From positions 1 through 27,764 of the IMG/VR virus record IMGVR_UViG_3300032093_000675: a stretch of DNA of 27,764 nt; one strand, given 5' to 3'. Made by a program: the position numbers and the translations under genes. The notes below the pieces were generated by a model, which ran no database searches, was not told where the DNA came from, and saw nothing but the letters and a program-made list of their open reading frames with translations. The stretch comes from a virus. Shown here in pieces: positions 349 through 26,850 of the stretch (the stretch's first letter is position 1; each line of letters starts with the position of its first letter).

Positions 349-2211
349 TTATTTAAATAAAATTCTAACTATTCCGTAATTACCGTCATATGCTTTAGCA
401 TTTTCTAATACATAATAATCTGTTCCATTTATAGCCATACCGTTTGAGTCAACACTAACCTTATCACCAATTATCTGTTCAGATGTTCTAACATATAATT
501 TGCCCAATAAACCTATAGGAGACCATTCTTTTCTGTCTTTTCTTGGAGTATAATTTTGTGTATGGTCATAAAGTGGATTTACTCTTTTTATATATTCAGT
601 CCTTAAATAAGTTTTACCAGATAAATCTCCATTATAAAGATTTCCTAAAATATTTGTTGGACTTGGAATTTCTGTATAAACATTTCTATTTATATCTTCA
701 TAAATTTCTAATTTATTTTCTCCAACCTTATAAACATCATATTTATCTTTTATAAATCTTCCCCACTCATCTTTAACAAAAGTGTTAGTCCACTTTAATG
801 AAGCAGAATCACCAACTATAGCAGGATTTGCAGAAACAACACCAACAACAGAAGAATTTCCTATTTCAATTTTATCATTAATTAAAGAAACAAAATAACC
901 AACTCTATCCTCATTCAATAAATTTCCATCATTCCACTCAAAATATTCAGCATAATCGGCAGGACCTAAATTGCTATTTCCATCCCAATACCCAGAGCCA
1001 TCAGTAAATTCAAAAATAATTGTATTATTAGATGGGTTAGGTCCTCCTGGAGTAGCGCCCATAGTAAAAGTATAAGCAGAAGTTGATTGAGCACCAGCAC
1101 CAGCCAACAAAGTATTACCATAACCATCTGTATAGTTGTCTCTTCCTCCTAAAATTACAGAATAATCACTATCTTTTATTTCATTTAAATAACCTCCCAA
1201 TATAGCAGAATAGATTGAAGAACCAAGAAGAGGAGTTGCGTTTATTAAATTATATCTTCCTCCTAATATTACCGAAAAACTAGTATCAATATTAGCGAAA
1301 AATGTGCCTCCATTTAATCTATTATTTGCGCCAACAAAAACTCCTGTAGAATAAGAAAGTGCTTCATTTGAAACACCACCAATAACGCTTGAAAACCCAT
1401 TTGCAGCAACATTAAGAGTTCCTCCTAAAATACTTTCACCATCAGTCGGACCAAGAAAGCTTTTATTATCAATTCTATTTTCACGCCCACCTATTATTGC
1501 GCTATACTCTGTTTCACCAGTACTTTCACTGCTTAATATAAAAGAATTTTGTTCATAAGATATATTATTACTTCCTCCTACAAAAGATTGATTGCCATAA
1601 ACTATATTATTATAACCTTGAGCGTGAGAATCTAATCCTATTGCAGTATTAAATCTACCTTCAACATGTGAAGATGTTCCAGAAGCTATATTGTTAAGAC
1701 CTTCAGCATGTGATTGAGCACCATATGCAGTATTTTGTCTACCTTCAGCATGAGACCTTGTCCCTATAGCCTCATTGTCAAACCCTTCAGCATGTGAATA
1801 AGAACCATATGCCGTATTTAATCTACCTTCAGCATGTGAAGCATCTCCAGAAGCAACTGTCAATTGTCCTTCAGCATGTGAAGCTGTACCTATAGCACCA
1901 GTTTGTTGCCCTTCAGCATGTGAATAATCTCCTGAAGCATAAGTTAAATATCCTTCCGTAAAAGAAGCTAAACCATCAGATAATGTAGTTAAACCAAATG
2001 CCTGAGAATAATTAGTTAATGCAGACACCGAAAAGCCTGCTGCAAGAGAATAATCTCCATTTGCAAAAATGTCAGAACCATTATTTGAAATTAAAGATTG
2101 AGAACCTGTACCACCAGACCACAATCCTGTTGTTGCTGAAAAAGCATCATTTATTTTTATTCTACCTTGTTCGATAGTGTCACTACTAAGTATTAATTCA
2201 TAAACTGGCAT
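349..2211 (-). CDS. Tail fibre/appendage protein with SHAEG head repeats and Peptidase_G2-like C-terminus
   Basis: This 620-residue protein has three parts. Residues 97-199 hold eight copies of S-H-A-E-G (the last two are SHVEG and SHAQG) at an exact 14-residue period, the head-repeat pattern of trimeric YadA/hemagglutinin-type adhesins. Residues ~236-360 hold looser repeats of the type V/A-I-L-G-G-x-x-N. From ~400 a C-terminal domain begins with DYAEYFEW (419-426), then GVVSANPAIVGD and W-T-N...D-x-W-G, which resembles the Peptidase_G2 autoproteolytic (intramolecular chaperone) domain of phage fibres and spikes. Family knowledge says such domains help fold a trimer and then cut themselves off. 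It lies between two other fibre/tail genes, so a trimeric host-recognition fibre is likely. The family assignment is from recognised motifs, not a search. Confidence 0.82.
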   Translation of the reverse strand: MPVYELILSSDTIEQGRIKINDAFSATTGLWSGGTGSQSLISNNGSDIFANGDYSLAAGFSVSALTNYSQAFGLTTLSDGLASFTEGYLTYASGDYSHAEGQQTGAIGTASHAEGQLTVASGDASHAEGRLNTAYGSYSHAEGFDNEAIGTRSHAEGRQNTAYGAQSHAEGLNNIASGTSSHVEGRFNTAIGLDSHAQGYNNIVYGNQSFVGGSNNISYEQNSFILSSESTGETEYSAIIGGRENRIDNKSFLGPTDGESILGGTLNVAANGFSSVIGGVSNEALSYSTGVFVGANNRLNGGTFFANIDTSFSVILGGRYNLINATPLLGSSIYSAILGGYLNEIKDSDYSVILGGRDNYTDGYGNTLLAGAGAQSTSAYTFTMGATPGGPNPSNNTIIFEFTDGSGYWDGNSNLGPADYAEYFEWNDGNLLNEDRVGYFVSLINDKIEIGNSSVVGVVSANPAIVGDSASLKWTNTFVKDEWGRFIKDKYDVYKVGENKLEIYEDINRNVYTEIPSPTNILGNLYNGDLSGKTYLRTEYIKRVNPLYDHTQNYTPRKDRKEWSPIGLLGKLYVRTSEQIIGDKVSVDSNGMAINGTDYYVLENAKAYDGNYGIVRILFK

Positions 2212-15600: not shown

Positions 15601-16062
15601 CCTTTAATAAATCAAAAGATAAATTCAATCTTAAGGGATTTGGTTGATTTTAAAATTGAATTAACAATAAAACCAAATGGAGATATTAAAGAGTTTTTCT
15701 ATTTTAATTCTATGGAAAAAGATGCTCTACCAATGTCTATGGGTTCTGGGGCGCAAAAGTTTATAGGAAGTGTTGCAATTAGAGATTCTTTGCACTTTGT
15801 GAGCTCATTAACAAAACCATCTCTTTGCATAATAGATGAAGGCTTTGGCTCTTTGGATGATGACCTATCGATGGCAATGCATTCTGTTTTTTCTTATTTA
15901 AGAGGTAAATATAGAAACACTTGGATTATTACTCATAAAAATGAAATTAAAGACTTTGTAGATAATATAATACAAGTATCAAAAAGTAAAAAAGGATTAA
16001 CTGAAGAACAGTTATTGGAAAATCCAAATGCTGGAGTTTCCGTATTTGATGTTCAAAATTAA
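12619..16062 (+). CDS. Single-chain Mre11-Rad50 (SbcD-SbcC; T4 gp47-gp46 type) recombination nuclease
   Basis: This 1147-residue protein joins two enzymes that are usually separate. Residues ~1-260 are an Mre11/SbcD-type phosphoesterase: SDIH (D12, H14), TGDVFH (47-51), LGNHD (81-85), H171 and GDIHEH (205-210), which bind the two catalytic metals. A linker of acidic sequence (~340-390) leads into a Rad50/SbcC ATPase: Walker A GKNFNGKT (427-434), long coiled coils with a zinc hook CPTCG at 777-781, ABC signature MSMGSGAQKF (1039-1048), Walker B CIIDEGFGSLDD (D1073, E1074) and ITHKNE. It should resect or trim DNA ends during phage recombination and replication. The start overlaps the primase stop by 4 nt, so the two are translationally coupled. 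Confidence 0.92.
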   Translation: MKNNDIIAQLSDIHIRYGSRHDEYKTVFQRTINDLKEIKPRRISITGDVFHIKITLSPKAIQLAGWFLKELSKIAPVDIILGNHDLNLQSLDQGNSIEPIIDLISDGYIVEKNAKEMPKHEGVGHGVYFYLHSGFYEVEENIVYGVYSCLDDEILTLSKKEQKKKYIALYHGPVYGCRGDNGYELKGEGLMNLSSFNNFDIVMLGDIHEHQFFKTKNSTVDNVAYPGSLIQQGFGESLEKGYITWNLKNNSFERRFIENDYGFSKIYISRGEIVEERIEELKVSNDPKKTKVEVVWECFEEDYSLEKERQIEKLIKNKYGCQTISVDSKFIGKNDEINGLDIDDSTDYSNSEEFEKLLKEFVESSDYENVEEVIELAKNIDKELNYSSIKGKKWFLDKLVVWNLFSFPNKQIEFDFNNLNGITGIFGKNFNGKTNLIRAFIWIAYRKILGDGESNKLVNMYTGSDTAGGRIYLTIDSQRYYIERTIKVKTKKDGTSDVSYGVEYKKEIKKEDGIIKWENVDSEKAATEKKEKSNIIVESIGTFEDFTKTVLQAQGGEGNFLDMSQQPKNDLINKYLGLEIFRDRYEYAKKIFNDIKSRQKVLGNPKDIEEEIESQNKSIKENQDLIESYQKEKIEVEKELDINESRILELTKKIIKVEGTTYKDKESAQKAIKVLEENNSTLNKEIGELEEWLSKNFKKELPDNGGLNYSEIEKKLSSERLLFDSNKNEYVTLEKWIKDNPKKEEKDVEAISKKINDIENAITSLKDKLLISKGKKCPTCGNVEQAANPDLEKKCTDDIKRGEEALKLEKDNLVIAKNVQTHNSNYDKNEVKLGSLKNVLQEKKILIEELKRQLEISNSIEEIKKHNLNVETNSIKLEGNRKKVISNESEIEKINKEIKIIDSNQSSIIENNKINEEIKGYEFEKKGCKLRLNQLNEKLTDSKSSIKVSENNIDNFNEKLNSIKSAEEAYGKYAIYLQAVHRDGIPARIIRKKLPLINQKINSILRDLVDFKIELTIKPNGDIKEFFYFNSMEKDALPMSMGSGAQKFIGSVAIRDSLHFVSSLTKPSLCIIDEGFGSLDDDLSMAMHSVFSYLRGKYRNTWIITHKNEIKDFVDNIIQVSKSKKGLTEEQLLENPNAGVSVFDVQN

Positions 16063-16706
16063 TCTAATTCAGAATCATTATCTGGGATTGGGGGCACATT
16101 TTCTTCATTGTCTCCAATTCTAGTTTCTGGATTTTTATAAGGCTGCTCTAAGTCTCTTTCATTTTTTTCAACAAACCTAGTAACTTTAGCTTTTCTCTCT
16201 TCTTCTTTTTGATTATTAATAAATTCTTGCTGATATTTCTTAGCTTTTGTAGAATTGAAATTTACCTCAACAGAACTCATTCCTTTGTCGTTGGCATTAT
16301 AATCACTAGGAACAAAATCAAAAAAATTACCAGTAAACCACATTCCTTTTATATTGTCAGCCTTAAAAAGTCTCCATTCGTTTTTTGCTTCAGCACTACG
16401 AATACCAGTTTCTAAAGCTTTTGATTCAGATTGACCAAGTTTATGAATCGCTCTAATAACCCTATTCCCAGCATGAGAAAGACCCATAGCAACAGGATAA
16501 ATTATCCTATATTTCCCAGAAGGAGCTTTCATTTTGTCTCCTTTATATAAAATCCCAACTTCTCTTCCTTGCAAGATTGCTTGAGTCATTAAATCCATGT
16601 TAAAAACTTCTCTTTCTGAACTGCCAGAAAAAGGGTCATTATCAGCTTCATTAATTAAACCTGCTAATTCTTTTAATCTTTTTTTATAAGACTCTGATAA
16701 CAACAT
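16059..16706 (-). CDS. Tagged accessory protein with WYL-like domain
   Basis: This 215-residue protein starts with the recurring tag MLLSESYKKRLKELAGLINE followed by A21; I18-N19-E20|A21 fits the prohead-protease consensus of T4-like phages. Residues ~40-122 (AILQGREVGILYKG, GKYRIIYPVAMGLSHAGNRV, EWRLFKADNIKGM) follow the strand order of WYL domains: a Y-x-x-x-x-x-x-R-x-I-x-P strand pair, then a W-R-x-F-x-x-D-x-I strand. WYL domains act as ligand or nucleic-acid sensing modules. The C-terminal ~60 residues are charged and Pro/Asn-rich and probably disordered. The start codon shares 1 nt with the stop of the upstream gene (TAATG), so it is coupled to it. Packaging in the head is a hypothesis. 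Confidence 0.6.
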   Translation of the reverse strand: MLLSESYKKRLKELAGLINEADNDPFSGSSEREVFNMDLMTQAILQGREVGILYKGDKMKAPSGKYRIIYPVAMGLSHAGNRVIRAIHKLGQSESKALETGIRSAEAKNEWRLFKADNIKGMWFTGNFFDFVPSDYNANDKGMSSVEVNFNSTKAKKYQQEFINNQKEEERKAKVTRFVEKNERDLEQPYKNPETRIGDNEENVPPIPDNDSELD

Positions 16707-17743
16707 TATTTTTTATTTGATTTTCTTTTTTTGTCTTTTGAGGCCTTTGCTTTTTTCCATAAATCAGAATCAGCTTTTCTTGAACCGCCAGAACCAGTAA
16801 TAAAACTATTAACTCTACCCATAGCCCATTGATTTTGAGCCACACCAGGCCTATGTCCAGTTCTCCAAGCTGCCATTCCTCTATTATAAACTTGTTTTAA
16901 AATATAATAAGGTATACCAGATGCTTTTGATTTGTTTTTTAATCCTTTATTGTTTTTAGAGCTTGATTCTTCCATCAAGTCGTTATATTGATTTGAAAAA
17001 TCTAAATCTTCACCAAACATTTTTTTGTAAGCCTTAGTAGCTTCACTTTCTTTTGTTTTTTGGCCTTTATCAGCCTGCCATTGTTTGGTATATGCTTCAG
17101 GGTCAGAATGATGTTTGTCAGCAAATTTATCAATTTCTTTTTTCATTTGAGACCTTTTTTCTGCAGATTTAGCAGTCAAATATTTTCCTGGAACTTTCCT
17201 TCCCTTTTTTGTTCTTGAGCTTTTTCCTCTTTTTTCTAAAAATAATTGTAAAGTTTCAGAAATTATAGTTTGAATGTTTTCTTCATCTTCTAAATTGGTC
17301 TTATAAATTTCTAACTCTAATTCATCAGAACCTTTTATTAATCTATGAAATCTTTCAGATTCTATAAAAATTGGATTATCTGGCGTAATTTCAATTGGCA
17401 ACTCATCATCAAACTGAAATTTCCAATCAGTTTCATGCAAAGGAAATATTATTCTATCTTCTTTGTCTCTATGCCATACAAGTTCATTTTCATTAATATT
17501 GTTTGAAAATGTTCTATAAACTAAATTTCCGTCAACATCTTCTTTATAAGGCTTATCAATAACAACATTAAAATAAATAGAATTTATTGATGCATCATCT
17601 TCTATTCCCATCTCATTTGAATGAGTTAAAAATTTAATAGCCAACTCTTCATCTCCATTTTCTACAGCTTTTGCCGCAGCCCTATTGTATGTTGACTTAA
17701 AAAGTTCGCTTATAATTGACCTTATATATTCTTTTTCTTCCAT
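16706..17743 (-). CDS. Cupin-like plus DUF5824-like fusion protein
   Basis: I prefer the ATG at 17743 (345 residues) over an in-frame ATG 24 nt upstream, since it avoids overlap with the preceding gene and puts a short amphipathic helix (MEEKEYIRSIISELFKS) at the N-terminus. Residues ~85-150 (NELVWHRDKEDRIIFPL, then DWKFQFDDELPIEITPD, then ERFHRLIKG) look like a small cupin beta-barrel with histidines at conserved positions. A lysine-rich linker follows. Residues ~276-332 (GIPYYILKQVYNRGMAAWRT, then GHRPGVAQNQWAMGRVNSFI, then GGSRKADSDLW) match the DUF5824 pattern known from uncultured and marine phages; its function is unknown. The C-terminus is a strongly basic tail. Binding DNA or an internal head component would be consistent with the charge. 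Confidence 0.65.
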   Translation of the reverse strand: MEEKEYIRSIISELFKSTYNRAAAKAVENGDEELAIKFLTHSNEMGIEDDASINSIYFNVVIDKPYKEDVDGNLVYRTFSNNINENELVWHRDKEDRIIFPLHETDWKFQFDDELPIEITPDNPIFIESERFHRLIKGSDELELEIYKTNLEDEENIQTIISETLQLFLEKRGKSSRTKKGRKVPGKYLTAKSAEKRSQMKKEIDKFADKHHSDPEAYTKQWQADKGQKTKESEATKAYKKMFGEDLDFSNQYNDLMEESSSKNNKGLKNKSKASGIPYYILKQVYNRGMAAWRTGHRPGVAQNQWAMGRVNSFITGSGGSRKADSDLWKKAKASKDKKRKSNKK

Positions 17744-17747
17744 AATT

Positions 17748-18371
17748 TTACCACCATGTTCCACCACCAGACAAACCTAAAGACTTTGCATATCTAGGAA
17801 GTCTACAAGCCCAATATCCTGGTTTTGTTTTGTCATTTTTTTGTTCACAATTATGTCTATCAGCAAATCTCTTTCTAGCTTTTGGGTCTCTAAGTTTAAC
17901 AGCTAAATTGCCGCCGCCAGATTTTGCCCCAAAAGACACTTTCATTATTTTTTTTGTTTTTGGATTTCTTACATAAACATAAAATTTCTTAGAACCACCT
18001 CTTTTAGGTTTTCCTAATTGAACTTTTTTTCCTTTATATTCTGCTTCATTAATATCTTCTTCATATTCTTCAAATGGTAAATCTAAAGATACCATTCTGC
18101 CTTCGTACAAAGCTCTCTCTCCAGCGTCAGTTTTTACTATTTCTTCATCATCTTCACAAAGAACAATTAAATTGTCATTGTGTAATTCTCTTATTTCATT
18201 TATTAAATCTAAATGTTTTTCAGAACCGTATCTAAATGCTGTATTTGAAAGGCTTAAATTGTTATCTAGGTGATAGCACAATTCTTCACTAATAATGTCT
18301 CTTGATTCTTTAAGAATCATAATTTCGTTTAATTCACATTCAAGAGTTTCTCTAATTAATTCTCTAAGCAT
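17748..18371 (-). CDS. DUF5872-like protein with N-terminal amphipathic tag
   Basis: This 207-residue protein has two parts. The N-terminal ~105 residues begin MLRELIRETLECELNEIM, an amphipathic helix of the sort that starts several genes here, and are strongly acidic. The C-terminal ~95 residues (EYKGKKVQLGKPKRGGSKKF, VRNPKTKKIMKVSFG, RHNCEQK...GYWACRLPRYAKSL) match DUF5872, a small basic domain widespread in environmental phages, with conserved R-H-N-C and Y-W-x-C motifs. I107-N108-E109|A110 lies exactly at the junction and fits a T4-type prohead-protease site, so an acidic propeptide could be removed from a basic mature domain. That processing is inference. It is the first gene of a three-gene minus-strand operon. 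Confidence 0.65.
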   Translation of the reverse strand: MLRELIRETLECELNEIMILKESRDIISEELCYHLDNNLSLSNTAFRYGSEKHLDLINEIRELHNDNLIVLCEDDEEIVKTDAGERALYEGRMVSLDLPFEEYEEDINEAEYKGKKVQLGKPKRGGSKKFYVYVRNPKTKKIMKVSFGAKSGGGNLAVKLRDPKARKRFADRHNCEQKNDKTKPGYWACRLPRYAKSLGLSGGGTWW

Positions 18372-18392
18372 ATTTTAGTGTTTATTAATCTT

Positions 18393-18401
18393 TTATAAAT
18401 A
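18393..18401 (-). promoter_or_regulatory. TATTTATAA motif upstream of DUF5872-like gene
   Basis: On the minus strand this reads TATTTATAA and ends 21 nt before the start codon at 18371. It is one of seven TATTTATNN sites at similar positions in the window and is a candidate phage promoter -10 element. Confidence 0.4.
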
Positions 18402-18402
18402 G

Positions 18403-18434
18403 TTTTGTTTTTTGTTTTTAAAACACTACTTTTG
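18403..18434 (+). promoter_or_regulatory. Bacteroidota-type promoter (TTTTG, 19 nt, TACTTTTG)
   Basis: TTTTG at 18403-18407 and TACTTTTG at 18427-18434 are separated by 19 nt, fitting the Bacteroidota sigma-A pattern (-33 TTTG, -7 TAnnTTTG). The nuclease gene starts 11 nt downstream, so its leader would be very short. This suggests an early or host-polymerase-read gene. Confidence 0.6.
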
Positions 18435-18445
18435 CATATTATATT

Positions 18446-19327
18446 ATGTATAAAAAAGAAAAAATTAAAATAAGTTATTCTCATTATTCTTTATATAAAG
18501 AATGTGGGCATAGATATTTACTGGAAAGTATATTAAATGTTCAGGAAAGCATACCAACAATAAATTCATGTTTTGGAGATGCAATTCATTCTGTATTACA
18601 AAAAAGTTTTGAGCATGAATTTAATGAAGAAGAAAGAATAAAAGAGTTTGAATTTATTTTTAGACAAAAATGTTTTAATAAACTAAAAGGCCTCCCAGAT
18701 TACAATAATGTAGAAGAATTTTTAGAACAAGGAAAAGAGATATTAAAATTAATACCTACTGAAAAATTGTCTAAAAAATACATATATATAGGGGCAGAAT
18801 ATACAATAAATGAGAAATTATATAAAAATTATTGTTTTGTTGGATTTATAGATTTAATTCTTAAGAACAAGAAAACAAAAAAATATATTATAATAGACTG
18901 GAAAACTTCAACATATGAATGGGATATAGAAAATAAAAAAGAAGACAAGGTCCTTTTAACTCAAATGAAATTTTATAAATATTTCTATAGCAAACAAAAA
19001 GGAATACCATTGGAAGAAATAGAATGTAAATATGTTATATTGAGTAGGTTTAAAGAAAAAAACAATCATAATGCAGGCTTTGGAAAATTACAAAATGTTG
19101 AAATAGAAACTGACGAAAAAGAACTTGAAGAATGCTTAGAAGATTTGGCAAAAGTTACAAGAGATATATTTATCAGAAAAGTTTTCAATAAAGCAAAACT
19201 TAGCAATAATAAAAAATCTTGTATTTATTGTCCATTTAAGGATAATATAAATTTATGTAACAACAAAAAAGAAGATTTTGACAATTTCATTAAAAGGATT
19301 AACGAAGGAAGCCCTTCCAGTTCATAG
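18446..19327 (+). CDS. Cas4/RecB-like PD-(D/E)XK nuclease with Fe-S-type cysteines
   Basis: This 293-residue protein has the motif order of RecB/Cas4-family nucleases: SYSHYSLYKEC (C20), GDAIHSV (H48), a strand with E118, GFIDLIL (D136), IIDWKT (D151, K153) and Q173-x3-Y177. A C-terminal cluster C259-x2-C262-x8-C271 together with C20 gives the four cysteines that hold a 4Fe-4S cluster in Cas4 and AddB-type enzymes. Family members cut or resect DNA ends. No cas1, cas2 or CRISPR array is present, so a CRISPR role is not supported; phage recombination or host DNA degradation is more likely. Its tail overlaps the convergent zinc-ribbon gene by 29 nt. Confidence 0.8.
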   Translation: MYKKEKIKISYSHYSLYKECGHRYLLESILNVQESIPTINSCFGDAIHSVLQKSFEHEFNEEERIKEFEFIFRQKCFNKLKGLPDYNNVEEFLEQGKEILKLIPTEKLSKKYIYIGAEYTINEKLYKNYCFVGFIDLILKNKKTKKYIIIDWKTSTYEWDIENKKEDKVLLTQMKFYKYFYSKQKGIPLEEIECKYVILSRFKEKNNHNAGFGKLQNVEIETDEKELEECLEDLAKVTRDIFIRKVFNKAKLSNNKKSCIYCPFKDNINLCNNKKEDFDNFIKRINEGSPSSS

Positions 19328-19790
19328 ATTTCTTTATTTTTTTATATTTTTTATCTATATCCTTTATTTCCTCTTTGTTTAAGTCGTTTTCGTCAGACAT
19401 TTCATCATTATTATCTGAATATGAAACTGGGTTTTTTAAATCATATTCTTCCTCTCCATAGAACTTTCCATTTTCTGGGTCATATTCATAACTAAAGTCT
19501 TTTGAATTAAACTTTTGATTAAACATATCAATGTAAACGTTAGACATGGGGACTACATCACTAGGGCCTGGACCAATATTTTCATTTACTAATTTACCAT
19601 ATTTTTTTATCATCCAATTTTTTAAATCTTCAATTCTGAACTTTTCTTTTTCAGAATCATAGCCACAAACATGACAAAGATGTGGGTCAGCATCTCCTTT
19701 CTCCTTTTGCCAACTGTGATAACAGTTGTCGCACACTATTAGTCCAGAAAGTTTTGCTATTCTATTTTTATATTCTTCACTTAAAAACAT
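19299..19790 (-). CDS. Tagged zinc-ribbon protein
   Basis: This 163-residue protein begins with the tag MFLSEEYKNRIAKLSGLI and passes straight into a zinc ribbon, C20-x2-C23-x15-C39-x2-C42 (VCDNCYHSW ... HLCHVCGYD), a form I associate with environmental phage proteins (C-x-x-C-x-x-S-W...D-P-x-x-C-H-x-C-G-Y-D). The rest is charged with no recognisable domain and ends in a Lys-rich segment. No protease-like site follows the tag here. Start and upstream stop share 1 nt (TAATG), so it is coupled to the 126-residue gene, which carries the same tag. A nucleic-acid or protein-binding role is possible. Confidence 0.6.
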   Translation of the reverse strand: MFLSEEYKNRIAKLSGLIVCDNCYHSWQKEKGDADPHLCHVCGYDSEKEKFRIEDLKNWMIKKYGKLVNENIGPGPSDVVPMSNVYIDMFNQKFNSKDFSYEYDPENGKFYGEEEYDLKNPVSYSDNNDEMSDENDLNKEEIKDIDKKYKKIKKSMNWKGFLR

Positions 19791-20152
19791 TACTTTATTT
19801 TTATAATTATAGAATCGCCATCAATTTTTATTTTAAAATCAGAAGGAGATAGGTTTTCGTAATAAGATTTATATATTTTTAAAATATCTTTTTTATAATT
19901 TAAGTTTTGTGAAGTCTCATTTTTTTTGGGTTTTTCAGATTTTTCCCATTTTACTATATTTCCTTTTTTTGAATTTTTATAAAAATCAACTTCGTCAGTA
20001 AATAACCATTTTTTTTCACCTTTTTTTCTTTTATAAAAAACATCTCCACCAATATCTCTTAGTTGATATTCATATTCATTTTTATTTGAAGATTCTTCAA
20101 TTAATCCTGATAGAAATTTGAGTCTTTTTTTGTACGATTCTGATAAATTCAT
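19790..20152 (-). CDS. Small tagged protein of unknown function
   Basis: I choose the ATG at 20152 (120 residues) because it gives MNLSESYKKRLKFLSGLIEE, aligning with the tags of the genes at 16706 and 19790; an in-frame ATG 18 nt upstream would add six residues. After the tag (I-E-E|S fits the protease-like pattern) comes a Lys/Tyr-rich body, RDIGGDVFYKRKKGEKKWLF, and a predicted C-terminal beta strand (DFKIKIDGDSIIIKIK). I do not recognise a family. The tag and operon position link it to the other proposed cargo proteins. Confidence 0.55.
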   Translation of the reverse strand: MNLSESYKKRLKFLSGLIEESSNKNEYEYQLRDIGGDVFYKRKKGEKKWLFTDEVDFYKNSKKGNIVKWEKSEKPKKNETSQNLNYKKDILKIYKSYYENLSPSDFKIKIDGDSIIIKIK

Positions 20153-20173
20153 ACTATTTAAATAAGTCATTTA

Positions 20174-20182
20174 ATATAAATA
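20174..20182 (-). promoter_or_regulatory. TATTTATAT motif upstream of the tagged 120-residue gene
   Basis: The minus strand reads TATTTATAT, ending 21 nt before the preferred start at 20152. It fits the recurrent TATTTATNN candidate promoter element. Confidence 0.35.
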
Positions 20183-20228
20183 TTAATAAACTTTACTTTT
20201 AGTTTGTTTTGTTTAAATTGTTATATCA

Positions 20229-20531
20229 ATGCACACAAGAAAAGAAATATTAAAAAACCAAAAAGAATTTGGTTATGAGATAAAAAAATGGTTATTAAAT
20301 GATTTTAATAACTCTAAAAATGATTTATTGGAAATAGAAACTTATGATGAGGAAATCCAAAAAGAAATAAATAAACTAAGCAGTAAATTTAAAAAAACAA
20401 ATCCAGAAAAAGATATTAAAAAATTCTTTATAAACGAAAATAATATTTATCCCAAATACTATGCTTGGTGGGATGAAATAACAGAAAAAGTAGAAATATA
20501 TTTATATGAAAGCAAACAGAAAGAACACTAA
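20229..20531 (+). CDS. Small charged hypothetical protein
   Basis: This 100-residue protein is not recognised. It is Lys/Glu/Asn-rich and predicted helical in the first two thirds (MHTRKEILKNQKEFGYEIKK), with an aromatic patch near the end (NIYPKYYAWWDEITEKVEIY). It is the first gene of a five-gene plus-strand run leading to the endolysin and overlaps the next gene by 26 nt. Confidence 0.45.
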   Translation: MHTRKEILKNQKEFGYEIKKWLLNDFNNSKNDLLEIETYDEEIQKEINKLSSKFKKTNPEKDIKKFFINENNIYPKYYAWWDEITEKVEIYLYESKQKEH

Positions 20532-20841
20532 AGAGGTATTAATAGATTTGTCGTATCACGGCTCAATAAATGAATTCGAGGAATTTTACGGTTTCTCAGT
20601 CAAGTATCAAGATTTAGAACAGCAGAGTTACATTGAATTTAAGGAAATAATGTTCGAAAGCATTAATGATAAAATAAAATTCAGAAAATATGGCAGAATA
20701 GGCGATATACTTACTATAAAGGCTGAAATGTACGAAAATGAAATAGAAAAGTTTGAAGAATTGATACAAAATAATAAGATTAGAACTATTTATGATTGGA
20801 TAGTTAAAGACATTACAATAATAAAAGAAGATTATGAGTGA
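20506..20841 (+). CDS. Small hypothetical protein
   Basis: This 111-residue protein is not recognised. It is acidic and Phe/Tyr/Ile-rich, with alternating charged and hydrophobic residues suggesting an alpha/beta fold (EVLIDLSYHGSINEFEEFYG, RIGDILTIKAEMYENEIEKF). It overlaps the upstream gene by 26 nt and the downstream gene by 8 nt, so it is part of the operon. The first ATG may not be the real one. Confidence 0.45.
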   Translation: MKANRKNTKEVLIDLSYHGSINEFEEFYGFSVKYQDLEQQSYIEFKEIMFESINDKIKFRKYGRIGDILTIKAEMYENEIEKFEELIQNNKIRTIYDWIVKDITIIKEDYE

Positions 20842-21538
20842 TAAAGGAAGTTCAAAAAAAGAAATGCTTGAAAGGTTTGAGAAGATGGGAATACCTGTTC
20901 CGCTAAAGCCAATTCAATCACCACAAGCGCCAATAAAAAATCCAGAAATGGCCAGCAAAATGGACCAGATAAGAAATGGTGCATTAAAAGGCAATTTTCA
21001 ATCTTTCATTGAAAAATCAGAAAACGTTTCTCATACACCATCAAATATGCCAGTGCCAAAACCTTCTAACAATTCAAGTAATGCGACAAAGTCAGCGCCT
21101 AAGTTAGAATCTTTTGCACCAAAAAATTCACAAGCAAAAATGTATGAAGATATGTTGTTTGGCGATAATCAAAGTTCAACAAGTAATTATACACAAAGTC
21201 ATTCTGAAGTGTCTGATTTTGGCCCTTCAAACGTTGACACTAGAGCAAGGCTTCAACAAAGATTACACGAAAGACAAAATGAATTACAGAATGAAAATTT
21301 TAATTACAGCAAAGAAGGTATAGGCCTAACTCTTACCGAAGCAGAACTTAATGAAAGAATTAGTGAAATAGCAAGAGATATCTCTAAAGAAATGATAAAG
21401 AAAGTTTTATTAGAATTTTCTAAAAAAGAAGGAGGCATAATAGTTGAATCTAATAACGTTAAAAAGGCTGAGATTGTTGGAAAAAATAAAGTAAAAATAG
21501 GAGGAAGAATATATACACTAAAGCCAATAGCAGAATGA
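20834..21538 (+). CDS. Hypothetical protein with disordered N-terminal half
   Basis: This 234-residue protein is not recognised. The first ~120 residues are Pro/Ser/Asn/Lys-rich and low in hydrophobics, probably disordered (PVPLKPIQSPQAPIKNPEMA, PVPKPSNNSSNATKSAPKLE). Residues ~140-195 form a predicted helix or short coiled coil (RARLQQRLHERQNELQNE; TEAELNERISEIARDISKEM). The last ~40 residues look like two or three beta strands (KAEIVGKNKVKIGGRIYTLK). I-V-E|S in GGIIVESNN fits a prohead-protease-like site near the C-terminus. A scaffold, head-internal or adaptor protein would fit this architecture, but nothing proves it. Confidence 0.5.
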   Translation: MSDKGSSKKEMLERFEKMGIPVPLKPIQSPQAPIKNPEMASKMDQIRNGALKGNFQSFIEKSENVSHTPSNMPVPKPSNNSSNATKSAPKLESFAPKNSQAKMYEDMLFGDNQSSTSNYTQSHSEVSDFGPSNVDTRARLQQRLHERQNELQNENFNYSKEGIGLTLTEAELNERISEIARDISKEMIKKVLLEFSKKEGGIIVESNNVKKAEIVGKNKVKIGGRIYTLKPIAE

Positions 21539-21948
21539 TAGAAAGCAATTATAAAATAGATACTGGATTTACAAAAAAAGATAATGCTTTTGTAAATGCA
21601 GAAATAAACTATAAAGACGACTTTACTAATGATAAGTATTTTTTAAATGGAGTTATTGAAGAAAATAAAATTCATTTTAATGTAGAAAAAAATAAAAAAA
21701 TCATAAACAAAATAGTCTTTAATAAAGATGCTAAAGATTTTTCCAAAAAATTACTTGAATGTTCTAAAGATTATGATTTTGTTGAAGATTTTAACAAAAA
21801 ACATTTAAATAACTTTTGTGAAGAAATAAATTTATTTTTAGAAAAAACTAATTCATCAATGATTTCTAAAGGCAAAATTTATGAAGGCTACAAAAGTAAA
21901 ATGATGGGAATGGCTGGAATAAAGAAAATAAATGAAAACTTAAGATAA
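21535..21948 (+). CDS. Hypothetical protein with C-terminal tag-like segment
   Basis: This 137-residue protein overlaps its upstream neighbour by 4 nt (ATGA) and shares 1 nt with the endolysin start (TAATG). The body is Lys/Asn/Phe-rich with no recognised family. The last 22 residues, YEGYKSKMMGMAGIKKINEN then LR, resemble the N-terminal tag of other genes (E-S-Y-K-K-R-L-K-E-L-A-G-L-I-N-E): Y-K-x-K/R-(L/M)-x-x-(L/M)-A-G-I...I-N-E. It appears to carry the tag at the opposite end. Position before the endolysin suggests a virion or lysis-linked role, but none is demonstrable. Confidence 0.5.
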   Translation: MIESNYKIDTGFTKKDNAFVNAEINYKDDFTNDKYFLNGVIEENKIHFNVEKNKKIINKIVFNKDAKDFSKKLLECSKDYDFVEDFNKKHLNNFCEEINLFLEKTNSSMISKGKIYEGYKSKMMGMAGIKKINENLR

Positions 21949-22793
21949 TGTTAATACAAAAAGGAGCTAAAGGACCACATGTAACAAAGATTCAAAAAGC
22001 GCTTGATGCAGCTGGATTTTGGACATACGGTAAATTTACTGAGATTTACGGTCCAGTTACAGAAGAGGCTGTAGAAAAATTTCAAGAAGCAAAAGGGCTT
22101 ACCATAGATGGTGAAGTTGGAGCTAAAACTCTAGCAGCACTTGGCATAACAATAAATGAAAGTGTAGATTTGCCAGATGCTGACACAAGTGAAGAAACAA
22201 AATATAAGAATGTAACAATAAAAGGCTCAAACTTCCCAGACAAACCTATAAAAGAAAATTTAAAAGTTAACCTTTCAAAAGAAATGTTAAATGAATATTT
22301 GCCAGCATTAGAAAAGGCTATGGGGAACGAACCTAAAGGATTTAAGCTTTTAGTTACTATAATGGCTCACAAAGAAGGGTTTTTTAACGGTTCGAGGTCT
22401 TATAGAACAAATAATCCAGGAAATATAGGAAATACAGATTCTGGAGCAAATAAGAAAAATACAACATTGATTGATGGGATTCTTTTGCAAAAAAATTACA
22501 TTTCTAAAATAGCGGAAGGAAAAAATAGTTCCTACCCATTAGGTAAAAAGAAAATAATAAAACCTTACTATAGTCCAGAAATAGCAAAGAATGCAAAAAG
22601 CTATGGAATGAGCCCTTATGTTCCTGGATATGAATTTGTATTTACTGGACAACTTGACCAATTTGTAAAAATTTATTCTACTGGAGCTCGTTCTGGTAAT
22701 GGTTATTTATCAATGATAATATCATATTTCAATCAGAATGGAATTAAAATTAGTGCCGAAAGTAAAATTCAAGATATAATTAAAATAAATTAA
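21948..22793 (+). CDS. Endolysin-like peptidoglycan hydrolase with N-terminal PG-binding domain
   Basis: This 281-residue protein has an N-terminal PG_binding_1-type domain (residues 1-67: IQKGAKGPHVTKIQKALDAA, YGPVTEEAVEKFQEAKGL, DGEVGAKTLAALGI) and a C-terminal lysozyme/transglycosylase-like domain (~105-281). That domain contains MAHKEGF (E143, probable catalytic acid) and YRTNNPGNIG (N-N-P-G-N-I, common in phage muramidase-like domains), then YVPGYEFVFTGQLDQFVKIY. It should cut peptidoglycan for host lysis or, if virion-borne, for entry. There is no signal peptide, so it would need a holin or virion delivery. The linker between domains contains I-N-E|S (69-72), the same protease-like sequence seen in the tagged proteins. 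Confidence 0.78.
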   Translation: MLIQKGAKGPHVTKIQKALDAAGFWTYGKFTEIYGPVTEEAVEKFQEAKGLTIDGEVGAKTLAALGITINESVDLPDADTSEETKYKNVTIKGSNFPDKPIKENLKVNLSKEMLNEYLPALEKAMGNEPKGFKLLVTIMAHKEGFFNGSRSYRTNNPGNIGNTDSGANKKNTTLIDGILLQKNYISKIAEGKNSSYPLGKKKIIKPYYSPEIAKNAKSYGMSPYVPGYEFVFTGQLDQFVKIYSTGARSGNGYLSMIISYFNQNGIKISAESKIQDIIKIN

Positions 22794-22794
22794 T

Positions 22795-23391
22795 ATGTAC
22801 ACAAGAGAACAAATAGAAGCTGCAGCAAAATCAAAAGGATATGTTTGGTTTGAAGATAACAAAAACAAGGGTTATGATGTAAATATAGTTGGTGTAAGAA
22901 ATAAGGCAACTGGTGATAAAGTAACTAATGTTTTTGATGATTGGATTACTATATCATATAAAGAAAATGGTGAATGGAAATTCTTTTGTTGGAATGCAAC
23001 AACAGACCCTGGAAAAAAGGGTGTAATGGAATTTCACAACAAAAAAGGAGTCGCTAGATTAGTACCAAATCAGTATAGAGGTGTATGGAGTGTAGATAAG
23101 CATCAAGGTAAATATGATGCCCTTTGTCAAAGAAAGGGAAATGTAAACGTTTGGAGAGACTCAGATAAAGACTTAATATTTGAAAATATGCTTGTTGATA
23201 CTGGAATGTTTGGAATAAACATACATAAAGCAGGACAAGATTCTACATGGGTAGAAAATTGGAGCGAAGGTTGTCAAGTATTTAAGAGAGTTAAAGATTT
23301 TGATGTTTTTATGTCAATTTGTAAAAAAGCAGCTAAAATACATGGCAATTCTTTTAGTTACACATTACTAGAATCTACTGATATAAAATAA
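22795..23391 (+). CDS. YkuD-like (L,D-transpeptidase fold) murein-active protein
   Basis: This 198-residue protein starts 1 nt after the endolysin stop codon. Its C-terminal core GINIHKAG (H144), then VENWSEGCQVF (S157, C160), matches the spaced His...S-x-G-C pattern of YkuD-type L,D-transpeptidases, with an S-E-G-C-Q form instead of the usual S-H-G-C. In phages such proteins are thought to act on the peptide stems of peptidoglycan as carboxypeptidases or endopeptidases. The neighbouring endolysin supports a joint lysis role. An L-L-E|S sequence lies near the C-terminus, possibly by chance. The assignment is from the motif alone. Confidence 0.6.
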   Translation: MYTREQIEAAAKSKGYVWFEDNKNKGYDVNIVGVRNKATGDKVTNVFDDWITISYKENGEWKFFCWNATTDPGKKGVMEFHNKKGVARLVPNQYRGVWSVDKHQGKYDALCQRKGNVNVWRDSDKDLIFENMLVDTGMFGINIHKAGQDSTWVENWSEGCQVFKRVKDFDVFMSICKKAAKIHGNSFSYTLLESTDIK

Positions 23392-23415
23392 ATTTAACAA
23401 TTCTTTTTTGTTACA

Positions 23416-23424
23416 TATTTATAA
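23416..23424 (+). promoter_or_regulatory. TATTTATAA motif upstream of the 68-residue gene
   Basis: TATTTATAA ends 18 nt before the ATG at 23443. It is the same element as at 26877 and at several minus-strand starts, and a candidate phage promoter. Confidence 0.4.
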
Positions 23425-23442
23425 TATATTAAAAGCTTTAAG

Positions 23443-23649
23443 ATGACTAGAAAAGAATTGGAACAATTGATAGACAGTGAAGTTTCTAAAATTTTTTCTG
23501 ACATGGTTTCAAAAGAGCCCCAATCAGATAAAAATAACGAATTGTCTCAAGATAGTCAAACTAATATAAATAAAATTGCTAATTTAACAGAAGAGGAATT
23601 GGATGACATTTTATTTTATGGAGGAAAAAGACCTTTAGATGAAGAATAA
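23443..23649 (+). CDS. Small acidic hypothetical protein
   Basis: This 68-residue protein is not recognised. The first ~20 residues (MTRKELEQLIDSEVSKIFSD) form an amphipathic helix resembling the MKxTKxQLKxxI tag of the genes at 24636 and 24880, and the rest is acidic and probably disordered, ending near the next gene. It begins a two-gene unit with its own upstream motif and a terminator at 24162. Confidence 0.5.
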   Translation: MTRKELEQLIDSEVSKIFSDMVSKEPQSDKNNELSQDSQTNINKIANLTEEELDDILFYGGKRPLDEE

Positions 23650-23665
23650 TTTAAAAAAATAATTG

Positions 23666-24157
23666 ATGACAGCACAAATTACTCAAGCGGAAATAAATGA
23701 ATTAAAAAAACAATTCGACGACAAAATAGGAAATAACTATTCTGTTGTTTTTGATAAAGATGAAGAAGGTCGAGATAATTTTAAAATTTATAAAGGTCAA
23801 AGTGGAGAAGATGCACTTTGGTCTGGTTCTGTAATTTTAGAACAAGATTACTATATTAAGTGGGAATTTTCATTAAAAAATGGGCCAAAAGTTACTAAGG
23901 CAACGTTTAAAATAAATGATTCAAATAAAGATATAATATCTACAATTTTCGATTTGTACAATATTTGGTCAGATAATTTATCTAAATATGTTAGAAGTTC
24001 AGAAGAAAATAATAATTCAGAAGAAATTACATCAACTGACGCTGAATTAGATGTTACTGCTGGACAAGAAACAATAGCTGAATCAAGAAGTTTTTCTGGA
24101 AGAAAAAGATTGATTGATTCAAGTGGAGATAGAATGAAAAAATTAGCTGGTCTATAA
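23666..24157 (+). CDS. Hypothetical protein ending in an RMKKLAGL tag
   Basis: I prefer the ATG at 23666 over an adjacent TTG 3 nt upstream (163 residues). The N-terminal ~110 residues look like a small alpha/beta domain (NYSVVFDKDEEGRDNFKIYK, WSGSVILEQDYYIKWEFSLK) that I do not recognise. An acidic linker follows. The C-terminus IAESRSFSGRKRLIDSSGDR then MKKLAGL ends in R-M-K-K-L-A-G-L, resembling the K-R-L-K-E-L-A-G-L part of the N-terminal tags elsewhere. I-A-E|S just before it fits the protease-like pattern, so the tail may be a removable sorting signal. The gene is followed directly by a terminator. Confidence 0.52.
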   Translation: MTAQITQAEINELKKQFDDKIGNNYSVVFDKDEEGRDNFKIYKGQSGEDALWSGSVILEQDYYIKWEFSLKNGPKVTKATFKINDSNKDIISTIFDLYNIWSDNLSKYVRSSEENNNSEEITSTDAELDVTAGQETIAESRSFSGRKRLIDSSGDRMKKLAGL

Positions 24158-24161
24158 AAAC

Positions 24162-24190
24162 AAAAAAGCCTCTGTAAAGAGGCTTTTTTT
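24162..24190. terminator. Bidirectional intrinsic terminator
   Basis: The inverted repeat AAAAAAGCCTCT / AGAGGCTTTTTTT with a GTAA loop has T-runs on both strands. It sits between convergent genes (stop at 24157 and stop at 24205) and should end transcription from both sides. Confidence 0.9.
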
Positions 24191-24204
24191 ATTTGTGTAT
24201 ATAA

Positions 24205-24636
24205 TTAATTTTTTATAATCTTCCAACTTTGTAATTCGTTTGTTTCATAAGGTAAATTTGTTTTTCTATAAATTGAGAATTTAAAAGTTTTACCTTTATC
24301 TAAACTGTCATCACCTTGAATTTTTACATAATCACCCTCTTCTATCTTTTGGCTTTCAGCAGCATCTACAACTTTAAATAAGTCATCTAACTGTCTTTCA
24401 ATTTTTATGGTAACTCCATCAAAATTTAAAATTACAGTTTCTCCTGGTTTGCTATCAAAAATACTTTCTTTTTCTTCAACTTCTTCTTTTGGAGAAACTT
24501 CAAAATCTTCATTTTCATTAAGTTGTTTTAATTCTTGATTTATTTTATCAAGTCTTTGTTTTAAAATAAAAGATTTAGAATGTCTTTCTACAGATTCTTT
24601 TATTATATCTTTCAATTGTTGCTTAGTTAATTTCAT
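24205..24636 (-). CDS. Small tagged protein (MKLTKQQLKDIIKE type)
   Basis: This 143-residue protein begins MKLTKQQLKDIIKESVERHS. The tag aligns with MKITKSQLKELIKEEIKK of the neighbouring gene, a short N-terminal peptide I know from many unrelated environmental-phage proteins. I-K-E|S (12-15) fits a T4-type prohead-protease site. A predicted coiled coil (LKQRLDKINQELKQLNE) and a beta-rich C-terminal half (ETVILNFDGVTIKIERQLDD, DYVKIQGDDSLDKGKTFKFS) follow, possibly an SH3-like or other small barrel. No family is recognised. Confidence 0.55.
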   Translation of the reverse strand: MKLTKQQLKDIIKESVERHSKSFILKQRLDKINQELKQLNENEDFEVSPKEEVEEKESIFDSKPGETVILNFDGVTIKIERQLDDLFKVVDAAESQKIEEGDYVKIQGDDSLDKGKTFKFSIYRKTNLPYETNELQSWKIIKN

Positions 24637-24643
24637 TTTGTTA

Positions 24644-24880
24644 TTATTTATATTTCTCCAATTCTATTTCAACCATTTTCATAATTTCTTCCTTTATAAA
24701 CTCATCAGATAAATAACCGTCTTCACCTTGATTCTTAGGAGTTTCTTCTTTTATTTTTTTAATCAATTCTTCTATTGGTTCTTGAGCCATATATAAAGGA
24801 TAATAAAAATATTCATTTAGTTGAATTTTTTTAATTTCCTCCTTTATAAGTTCTTTGAGTTGTGATTTAGTTATTTTCAT
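24644..24880 (-). CDS. Small tagged protein (MKITKSQLKELIKEE type)
   Basis: I choose the ATG at 24880 (78 residues), since it starts precisely at the tag MKITKSQLKELIKEEIKK; an in-frame ATG at 24898 would add six residues. The rest is short and acidic (EEPIEELIKKIKEETPK, DEFIKEEIMKMVEIELEKYK) and helical. It lies 7 nt upstream of the other gene with the same tag. Function unknown. Confidence 0.5.
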   Translation of the reverse strand: MKITKSQLKELIKEEIKKIQLNEYFYYPLYMAQEPIEELIKKIKEETPKNQGEDGYLSDEFIKEEIMKMVEIELEKYK

Positions 24881-24907
24881 TAGTTTTATTTTAAACATTA
24901 TTTATAA

Positions 24908-24954: not shown

Positions 24955-26850
24955 ATGGATGATAATAAGGTTATAATAACGAAGTTAAAGTCAAATTACA
25001 AATTAGAGTATAATTACAGGAAAAGTCTAAGCGATTTTATAAAATCCTTCCCAGAAGACCAAAGACAAATAAAGATGGACTTTATGCAAAGACCTGATGG
25101 AAGTGGTTATGAAAGTTGGTATAGAGTAGTTTCCGAAGGCTATATAGGTAAAGTAATAGGCTTTATTAAGGATAATGGTATACCTTTTAAGTTCACAAAC
25201 TTAACAAATGAAGAAGTTGAGGAATTAAGGATGAAGTTCATAAAAAGACAAGAATCTTTAATGAAATCTTTATCTATGAAGTCTGAAAATATAGATGTTT
25301 CTGGTATTGATTTTTCCTTCATGAAAATAGAACCATATGAATATCAAAAACAGGCTGCAGTTTTTTTTGACACTTGTAATGGTAGAGCCTTACTTGGAGA
25401 CCAGCCAGGAGTAGGAAAAACAAATTCTGCAATGACATATGCGGCTTGGAAAAAAAAGAAAACGTTAATAATCTGTCCAGCAAACTTAAGGCTTAATTGG
25501 AGAAGTGAAATTTTAAAATTTACACATGAAAAAGCTTTTGTCTATAAATGGAAACCAACAAAAAAGTCTGGTAAAATAAATTATATTAAAGAAGAAAGTT
25601 TGTTTGATATAATAGGATATGATTCTTTAGGCTCATATATAACGATTGAAATGTCACACACATGTAAGAATGTCTTTTGTGGCTGGAAAGAAAGGAATGA
25701 TAAAAAAAGATACAAAGATAAGACTTGTCCTAAATGTGGAGTTAGAAATATGGTAACTTCAAGGGCAACAAAAAATATAACCTTTACAAATGACTCTGAA
25801 GGAATAACAATAAATCCAAAAGATTATGAAATTTTAATAATGGATGAAGCTCATTATATAAAAAATGATTCTGCAGATAGGACTAAGTTGGTAAAGAAAA
25901 ATTTTAAAGATATACCACATAGAATTTTACTTACTGGTACAGCGATAAAAAGTAGACCATACGAGTTTTTCTCTTTATTAAACTTCTTATATCCAGAGGA
26001 ATGGTCAAATTCACACGCTTTTGGTGTAAAGTATTGTGCGGCTGAAAAAAATAATTTTGGATGGGATTATAATGGTGCTTCTAATCTGGAAGAGTTGTTT
26101 GAAAAAATTTCTCCTTATTTCTTAAGAAGACTTAAAAAGGATATTTTAAAACATCTCCCAGAAAAAACATATACAGCAATTCCAATAGAATTAAATGAAA
26201 TAGAATTAAGGGAATATAATAAAATAAAGAAAGGAATAAAAGAAGAACATCAATCCGATAAACCAGGTGAAGATAATAGAATGAATCATTTAACCAGAAT
26301 TCAAAAGTTAAAACATTTTACGTCTGAAATAAAAATGAAAAGAGCTTTTGATTTTATACAAGATATTATAGATGGAGATGAAAAAGTTGTTGTATTCACA
26401 CAATATAAAGATATATCTTATAAAGTTGCAGAAAGATTTGGTGATGCTGCTGTAGTTTTTAATGGAGATATTAATTCAAACAAAAAAGACGAAGCTGTTG
26501 AAAAGTTTATGAATGATGAAAAAACTAAAGTATTCTCTGGAACTATAGGAGCGGCTGGTGTAGGAATTACTTTAACTTCTGCAAGTATATCTATATTTAT
26601 TGACCAACCATGGACAAGTGCAGATAGAGAACAAGCAGAAGATAGAATACATAGAGCTTCATCAAAGGCGGATAAGGTGCAAATTATAAGACTTATTTGT
26701 CAAGATACAATAGATGAAGATATAGATAGAATGTTAAATCACAAATCTTCAATTTTATCTAAAGTGCTTGATGGAACTGAATTTGAGCAAAAAGTTGAAG
26801 TTAAAGATGAAAGTATTTTTAGCGATTTATTAAAGACTTTATATGATTAA
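24955..26850 (+). CDS. SNF2-family (SF2) DNA helicase/translocase with zinc insertion
   Basis: This 631-residue ATPase has the full SNF2 motif set. Motif I is GDQPGVGKT (148-156), Ia is LIICPANLRLNW (171-182), II is MDEAH (296-300), III is LLTGTA (325-330), V is GAAGVGITLTSA (532-543) and VI is QAEDRIHR (560-567). Between Ia and II an insertion carries C237-x4-C242-x15-C258-x2-C261, a likely zinc ribbon. Such enzymes translocate on duplex DNA without classic strand separation; phage members are proposed to help replication fork handling, recombination or transcription. Typical SNF2 motif I reads D-E-M-G-L-G-K-T; this one has D-Q-P-G-V-G-K-T, still a valid P-loop. The gene stands alone after a divergent promoter region. 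Confidence 0.9.
   Translation: MDDNKVIITKLKSNYKLEYNYRKSLSDFIKSFPEDQRQIKMDFMQRPDGSGYESWYRVVSEGYIGKVIGFIKDNGIPFKFTNLTNEEVEELRMKFIKRQESLMKSLSMKSENIDVSGIDFSFMKIEPYEYQKQAAVFFDTCNGRALLGDQPGVGKTNSAMTYAAWKKKKTLIICPANLRLNWRSEILKFTHEKAFVYKWKPTKKSGKINYIKEESLFDIIGYDSLGSYITIEMSHTCKNVFCGWKERNDKKRYKDKTCPKCGVRNMVTSRATKNITFTNDSEGITINPKDYEILIMDEAHYIKNDSADRTKLVKKNFKDIPHRILLTGTAIKSRPYEFFSLLNFLYPEEWSNSHAFGVKYCAAEKNNFGWDYNGASNLEELFEKISPYFLRRLKKDILKHLPEKTYTAIPIELNEIELREYNKIKKGIKEEHQSDKPGEDNRMNHLTRIQKLKHFTSEIKMKRAFDFIQDIIDGDEKVVVFTQYKDISYKVAERFGDAAVVFNGDINSNKKDEAVEKFMNDEKTKVFSGTIGAAGVGITLTSASISIFIDQPWTSADREQAEDRIHRASSKADKVQIIRLICQDTIDEDIDRMLNHKSSILSKVLDGTEFEQKVEVKDESIFSDLLKTLYD

Follow-up and report, generated by a model that had tools for sequence, protein, structure and literature searches.

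RESULTS

Two Short Terminal Peptides Recur on Small Phage Proteins

The 27,764-nucleotide stretch of DNA analyzed here (the window) is an IMG/VR virus record that contains a series of small genes whose products carry, at one end or the other, one of two short peptides, i.e., tag 1 (consensus SESYKxRLKxLAGLI) and tag 2 (consensus MKITKxxLKxIIKEE). These genes lie in the right part of the window together with a PD-(D/E)XK nuclease gene, a helicase gene and two tRNAs, the left part being occupied by genes for tail-appendage-type proteins and an SbcC-like nuclease. The window is contained, reverse-complemented, in a 68.8-kb contig, IMGVR_UViG_3300042691_049879 (G001), and its neighborhood is shared with a 232-kb relative, G009, which has a T4-type prohead protease and a portal. 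An earlier reading of the sequence (the original prediction) had quoted leader peptides at starts 16706, 19790, 20152, 24636 and 24880, and all five are present there; with the looser helices that it also named, all are on the minus strand except that at 23443. The tagged features are as follows:

16653-16706, minus strand: N-terminal tag 1 of open reading frame (ORF) 16059-16706; MLLSESYKKRLKELAGLI, then LINE followed by A
16059-16706, minus strand: the corresponding tagged protein (215 residues) with a body predicted to be WYL-like; tag, variable linker and body are kept in 12 aligned homologs
19737-19790, minus strand: N-terminal tag 1 of the zinc-ribbon protein 19299-19790; MFLSEEYKNRIAKLSGLI, without [LI]xE right after it
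20099-20152, minus strand: N-terminal tag 1 of protein 19790-20152 (Met at 20152, ORF 19790-20170); MNLSESYKKRLKFLSGLI, then LIEE followed by S
21883-21945, plus strand: C-terminal tag 1 of protein 21535-21948, which ends EGYKSKMMGMAGIKKINENLR; kept in relatives
24119-24154, plus strand: C-terminal tag 1 of protein 23663-24157; SSGDRMKKLAGL, ending DRMKKLAGL; kept in relatives
24595-24636, minus strand: N-terminal tag 2 of protein 24205-24636; MKLTKQQLKDIIKE, followed by S
24839-24880, minus strand: N-terminal tag 2 of protein 24644-24880 (Met at 24880, ORF 24644-24898); MKITKSQLKELIKE, followed by E
23443-23490, plus strand: tag 2-like N terminus of protein 23443-23649; MTRKELEQLIDSEVSK, scoring 40 against the 24644 product; orthologs begin, e.g., MNKKELKDLIDLEVSK
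18330-18371, minus strand: divergent tag 2-like N terminus of protein 17748-18371; MLRELIRETLECEL; the ortholog in L142 begins MKITEAKLKQIIKEET
17702-17743, minus strand: weak tag 2-like N terminus of the DUF5824 protein 16706-17743 (DUF5824 E = 1.2e-18); MEEKEYIRSIISEL, with a borderline score of 34

When all N termini of G001 were compared with one another (n = 82), 25 pairs scored 35 or more, whereas 200 shuffles gave a mean of 0.56 such pairs and a maximum of 3. Nearly all of these pairs fell within two clusters, which are tag 1 (top pairs among the products of 16059, 19299, 19790 and two other genes) and tag 2 (the products of 24205, 24644 and three other genes); G001 contains further tagged genes besides those originally quoted. 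The remainders (bodies) of the tagged G001 proteins gave no mutual BLAST match at E ≤ 1, and the idea of shared leaders on unrelated bodies was thus upheld. When the whole 16059 product was compared with the window, the only match besides itself involved residues 1-24, at 20081-20152. The leaders are not exclusively N-terminal, as had been supposed, since the products of 21535-21948 and 23663-24157 carry a C-terminal tag 1 that had been missed. The core of tag 1 occurred at a terminus eight times and in the interior once, both in G001 (P = 1e-4) and in G009 (P = 2e-5), and was found at no protein end in three classical T4-like genomes. Among the looser helices named at the outset, that at 23443 was substantiated (score 40 within the contig), that at 17743 was borderline (score 34), and that at 18371 could be connected with tag 2 only via the tag 2-bearing ortholog in L142.

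Searches of PHROGs and Pfam did not recognize the tags as a family, and a literature search on the tag strings found no paper mentioning them.

The Tags Are Modular and Widespread

Searches of a phage collection with the short peptides (tblastn) gave no matches, probably owing to low statistical power, and the tags were traced by DNA patterns instead. A tag 2 pattern fixed over residues 1-16 only matched at least 119 IMG/VR stretches, with none matched by a codon-permuted control. These encode at least 210 distinct tag 2 proteins, and those long enough to compare form at least 160 body clusters, as expected of a peptide attached to many unrelated domains. Among the matches listed, an alignment of 138 tag 2 proteins had a consensus only over approximately the first 22 residues, and only a handful of proteins matched Pfam, e.g., J-domain and leucine-rich repeat families. 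Single genomes contained up to 11 exact copies of tag 2 and none of the reversed pattern. The tag 1 pattern was found in 46 stretches, nearly always at an N or C terminus. A cultured carrier, Flavobacterium phage immuto, has two proteins with an N-terminal tag 1 (25061-25456 and 111675-112139), in which cleavage would be expected after GIITE. The two labels are therefore present on dozens of unrelated proteins in this phage and in many relatives, known mostly from environmental sequence.

Copies of a tag within one genome differed mainly at third codon positions (289 vs 92 and 104 in G025; 124 vs 39 and 30 in G018), which indicates that the peptide itself is under selection. The tags are also exchanged between orthologous bodies. 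Most relatives have tag 1 on the 16059 body, but the longer protein of G009 has MNIRNIIRETF instead; the 17748 body begins MLRELIRETL in the window, MRKFISEIL in its neighbors and MKITEAKLKQIIKEET in L142; and the C-terminal part of the 19299 protein sits behind MKEIRKIIREVL in L243. One protein of G009 has tag 2 at its start and tag 1 at its end.

Both Tags Usually End at a Prohead Protease Motif

In T4, the prohead protease gp21 cleaves after L/I-X-E, and the internal proteins shed core-targeting propeptides of 10-19 residues (PMC9026906). Among the 155 tag 2 representatives in the matches listed, [LI]xE began at residue 19 or 20 in 53%, compared with 1.5% per position further on, a region that lay outside the search pattern. 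Conservation of tag 2 ended at this motif, and the commonest next residue was G or A. For N-terminal tag 1 (40 candidates), [LI]xE followed the tag directly in 65%, against a background of 2.2%.

Among contigs of at least 80 kb, the protease family PF03420 was detected in 14 of the 15 with tag 2, but in only 5 of the 15 tRNA-bearing ones that served as controls. A T4-type prohead protease was found in G007 and G009. It was not found in the parent contig, G001, which is incomplete. The anticipated co-occurrence with such a protease was therefore seen for tag 2, whereas an association with tag 1 was not established (three long contigs, G034, G036 and G038, are considered in the Discussion).

Genes of the tag 2 type adjoin the prohead protease gene. 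As a separate observation, positions 160462-162783 of LR756508, a 484-kb uncultured phage, contain successive tag 2-type genes within the head cluster, in the interval that separates protease and scaffold. In tag 2 phages we also noted a conserved protein of about 133-153 residues (L246-L256), which is encoded by the first, second or third gene downstream of that for the prohead protease; it has a tag 2-like helix at its start (e.g., MKKAELKKALKPLVKECIKEVLFEDG) and often a tryptophan near its end (WKDLI, WAKLAF). This could be a second core protein, and the model for tag 2.

The Core of Tag 1 Closes the Scaffold of a T4-Related Branch

The position of T4 gene 22, flanked by the genes for the prohead protease and the major capsid protein (MCP), is occupied in G009 by a gene whose product ends in VARMKLLAGINKTLNS. 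Proteins in the same position end in KRMKKLAGIL in G039, RRRMRMLAGIVKPINE in G041, SRMKQLAGIETLKS in G042, TRWQLLAGLKQK in G019, SRWQKLAGIIK in phage immuto, ERMKKLAGIVK in Microcystis phage Mel-JY01 and DRWAVLAGIGK in G025; the protease-to-MCP gene of G043 likewise ends in the tag 1 core, and in Rhodothermus phage RM378 the gene preceding the capsid protein ends in ERIKRLAGL. In this T4-related branch, the tag 1 core at scaffold C termini can thus be written R[MWI]xxLAG[IL]; the motif was absent from the scaffolds of T4, HTVC008M, G010, G012 and G016. Identity as scaffold was assigned by gene position and family: nine scaffolds with the core align as one family, in which the C-terminal block is the best conserved. 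In IMG/VR, 70 distinct proteins end exactly in RMKxLAG[LIV]; they form nine clusters, of which the largest (36 members) is scaffold-like and the other eight are unlike the scaffold. With a profile built from the cargo tags, the tails of the G039 and G043 scaffolds scored higher than every shuffle, while those of G041, G042 and immuto were not significant.

Structure Models and Cargo

For the products of 16059 and 19790, AlphaFold modeled a short tag helix, followed by a disordered linker and then the body, with predicted local distance difference test (pLDDT) values below 50 at residues 16-29 and 25-29, respectively. Alignments of the same two proteins (A1, the 16059 product with 12 homologs; A2, the 19790 product) have a variable linker between tag and body. 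The models, which place a disordered linker after the tag helix, thus show no tag within one contiguous fold, the outcome that had been named as counting against a targeting signal.

The best Foldseek matches of the 16059 body were WYL proteins (PafBC, CapW, DriD and BrxR; E = 0.007-0.12, none below 0.001), and the product had no Pfam WYL match; a WYL-like fold is therefore predicted with modest significance. An ART-PolyVal ADP-ribosyltransferase (E = 5e-15) is among the tag 1 cargo. Other tagged proteins include GH24 lysozymes, one of which, in G001, ends in a C-terminal tag 1 (SESYKLRLKTLAGIL), a PAP2 (lipid) phosphatase, a J-domain protein, and a DUF5661 protein, one region of which may be a nucleotidyltransferase; most have no known domain at all. 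The T4 ADP-ribosyltransferase Alt is packaged and injected, and injection is predicted for related domains as well (PMC5512222). A role for the cargo in host takeover or counter-defense is plausible.

Two proteins of the window with weaker leaders gave observations of their own. The C-terminal domain of the 17748-18371 product (RHNCEQKNDKTKPGYWACRLP) is seen again in Flavobacterium, Methylophilales and Pelagibacter phages. In the 16706-17743 product, the DUF5824 region matches the end of a PHROG named cytidyltransferase. These two products possibly represent another class of cargo or head protein.

DISCUSSION

Because the core of tag 1 is the end of the scaffold tail, and both tags usually end at a protease cut site, they are most likely marks for head packing. 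We infer that, in this lineage of T4-related phages, they act as capsid-targeting propeptides, a reading to which we assign a probability of about 0.74. Proteins bearing tag 1 or tag 2 would bind the assembling prohead core in the infected cell. Tag 1 would achieve this as a mimic of the scaffold (the protein at the gene 22 position), standing in for its C-terminal tail at whichever surface that tail touches, while tag 2 resembles the short helical N termini of other head-cluster proteins. Once active, the T4-type prohead protease would cut after the [LI]xE that closes most of the tags, freeing mature cargo within the head for injection together with the DNA. With rather less confidence, we favor the broader view that one label, copied from the scaffold tail, loads many unrelated proteins into phage heads from the N or C terminus alike, and that with it and the MKITK-type label much of the head-packed, and probably injected, proteome can be read from sequence.

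The original prediction had likened the leaders to the capsid-targeting sequence (CTS) of T4. The scaffold tail, the [LI]xE motif, the protease accompanying tag 2, the approximately 160 bodies and the detached tag in the models all speak for this, but there is no likeness to the propeptide of IPI, and no protease could be detected in several of the long contigs with tag 1. As in the tagged proteins, the T4 CTS (in IPI, IPII, IPIII and Alt) is a short N-terminal peptide on unrelated bodies that ends at an L/I-X-E site of the T4-type prohead protease, and T4 IPI (MKTFKEFTSTTTPVSTITEA) has the same layout. The IPI N terminus, the sole T4 propeptide compared, was not similar to the tags in sequence, its score being reached by 69 of 500 shuffles for tag 1 and 363 of 500 for tag 2. 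Fusions with the CTS bring foreign proteins into T4 heads (PMC9026906, PMC9958956). In comparison with the T4 system, only here did we note a tag core in common with the scaffold, tags at either terminus, two tag families, and one tag (tag 2) on some 160 body clusters.

Other systems resemble the tags in part. Giant Salmonella phage SPN3US has removable N-terminal propeptides on head proteins and a T4-related protease, with prohead targeting proposed (PMC5694885), but its propeptides are mostly longer than 100 residues and are cleaved after A-X-E (PMC10052503), rather than being a short modular label on many bodies. Polyvalent proteins (J Bacteriol 2017, PMC5512222) share the ART-PolyVal domain with one tag 1 cargo and are predicted to be packaged and injected; they are defined by multi-domain architecture, and the portions of that paper available to us describe no common short targeting peptide.

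In tailed phages, the C-terminal tails of scaffolds bind coat protein. The core of tag 1 likewise is a scaffold C terminus, the difference being that here the tail is also found on unrelated cargo. The tags thus appear to be a variant of the capsid-targeting principle, in which the two families, the use of either end, the many cargo bodies and the scaffold tail as apparent model for tag 1 are new.

Several results weigh against head packing. The scaffolds of the tag-bearing branch matched no named scaffold profile, whereas T4 gp22 matches phrog_237. A profile built from scaffold tails alone did not pick out the tags of the window significantly (best P = 0.31); given such weak matches between profiles, tag 1 and the scaffold tail have only a short core in common, and imitation, or convergence on one docking site, is as likely as common descent. 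The [LI]xE motif is missing from its expected position in nearly half of the tag 2 copies and in about one-third of the N-terminal tag 1 copies, those of the zinc-ribbon family among them, and contrary to expectation it was only weakly enriched ahead of C-terminal tags (51% of clusters vs 24%). In G034, G036 and G038, tag 1 contigs of more than 150 kb that may be fragments, PF03420 went undetected, and a profile specific to the lineage did not reveal it either. Pattern searches bias the apparent conservation of tag positions, although not past residue 16. Finally, our literature search found no virion proteomics for any tagged protein, including those of phages immuto and Mel-JY01.

The missing protease in those three contigs would be understandable if the tags docked to some other phage assembly or complex, be it a replication complex, a membrane site, or the tail or baseplate, with the scaffold simply sharing that partner. 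A tail or membrane role would also suit the PAP2 phosphatase and the GH24 lysozyme with a C-terminal tag 1. We consider this unlikely, because the scaffold closed by the tag 1 core adjoins the protease and the MCP, the [LI]xE closing the tags is the motif of the prohead protease, and tag 2-type genes lie beside the protease gene. Two further explanations fare considerably worse. Several tagged genes adjoin one another, as might arise from DNA-level duplication, start-codon context or recombination hot spots, but duplication without selection is rejected by the predominance of third-position differences in G025 and G018, and neither the occurrence of tag 1 at C termini nor the end of conservation at the protease motif fits such an origin, which we regard as very improbable. 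We give slightly less credence still to the tags being the first helix of a shared folded domain, given the variable, low-pLDDT linker that parts tag from body, or remnants of LAGLIDADG homing elements. The string LAGLI does recall LAGLIDADG, and G009 has two matches of LAGLIDSDG- or RGLMDSDG-type sequence, but these are interior and outside the tagged genes, and this origin is rejected.

How certain proteins come to be localized in the T4 core is reportedly still a mystery (PMC9958956), and head packing by means of the tags would bear on this problem. Cargo marked with the tail of the scaffold itself would be a straightforward answer, and one that can be tested. If the reading is correct, sequence would suffice to list the injected takeover and counter-defense proteins of uncultured phages, and the tags would provide an inventory of this kind for an environmentally common branch of T4-related phages.

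Additional Features of the Window and Its Parent Contig

At the left of the window, the product of 349-2211 (minus strand) has a Peptidase_G2 intramolecular-chaperone autoproteolytic domain, as is typical of tail appendages. Outside the window, positions 25232-26342 of G001 (minus strand) contain a series of short ORFs that is conserved in L339, L340, L341 and L344. These encode out-of-order pieces resembling residues ~70-107 (E ~1e-12) and 274-335 (E ~1e-16) of a relative's MCP, and by eye there is a likeness to pieces of the prohead protease and tail sheath as well. No such series of capsid-like fragments was found in G009. Between the pieces, the motif Y-K-[RK]-x-L-L-I-E-[KT]-Y recurs; the short ORFs perhaps encode decoy or dominant-negative peptides.

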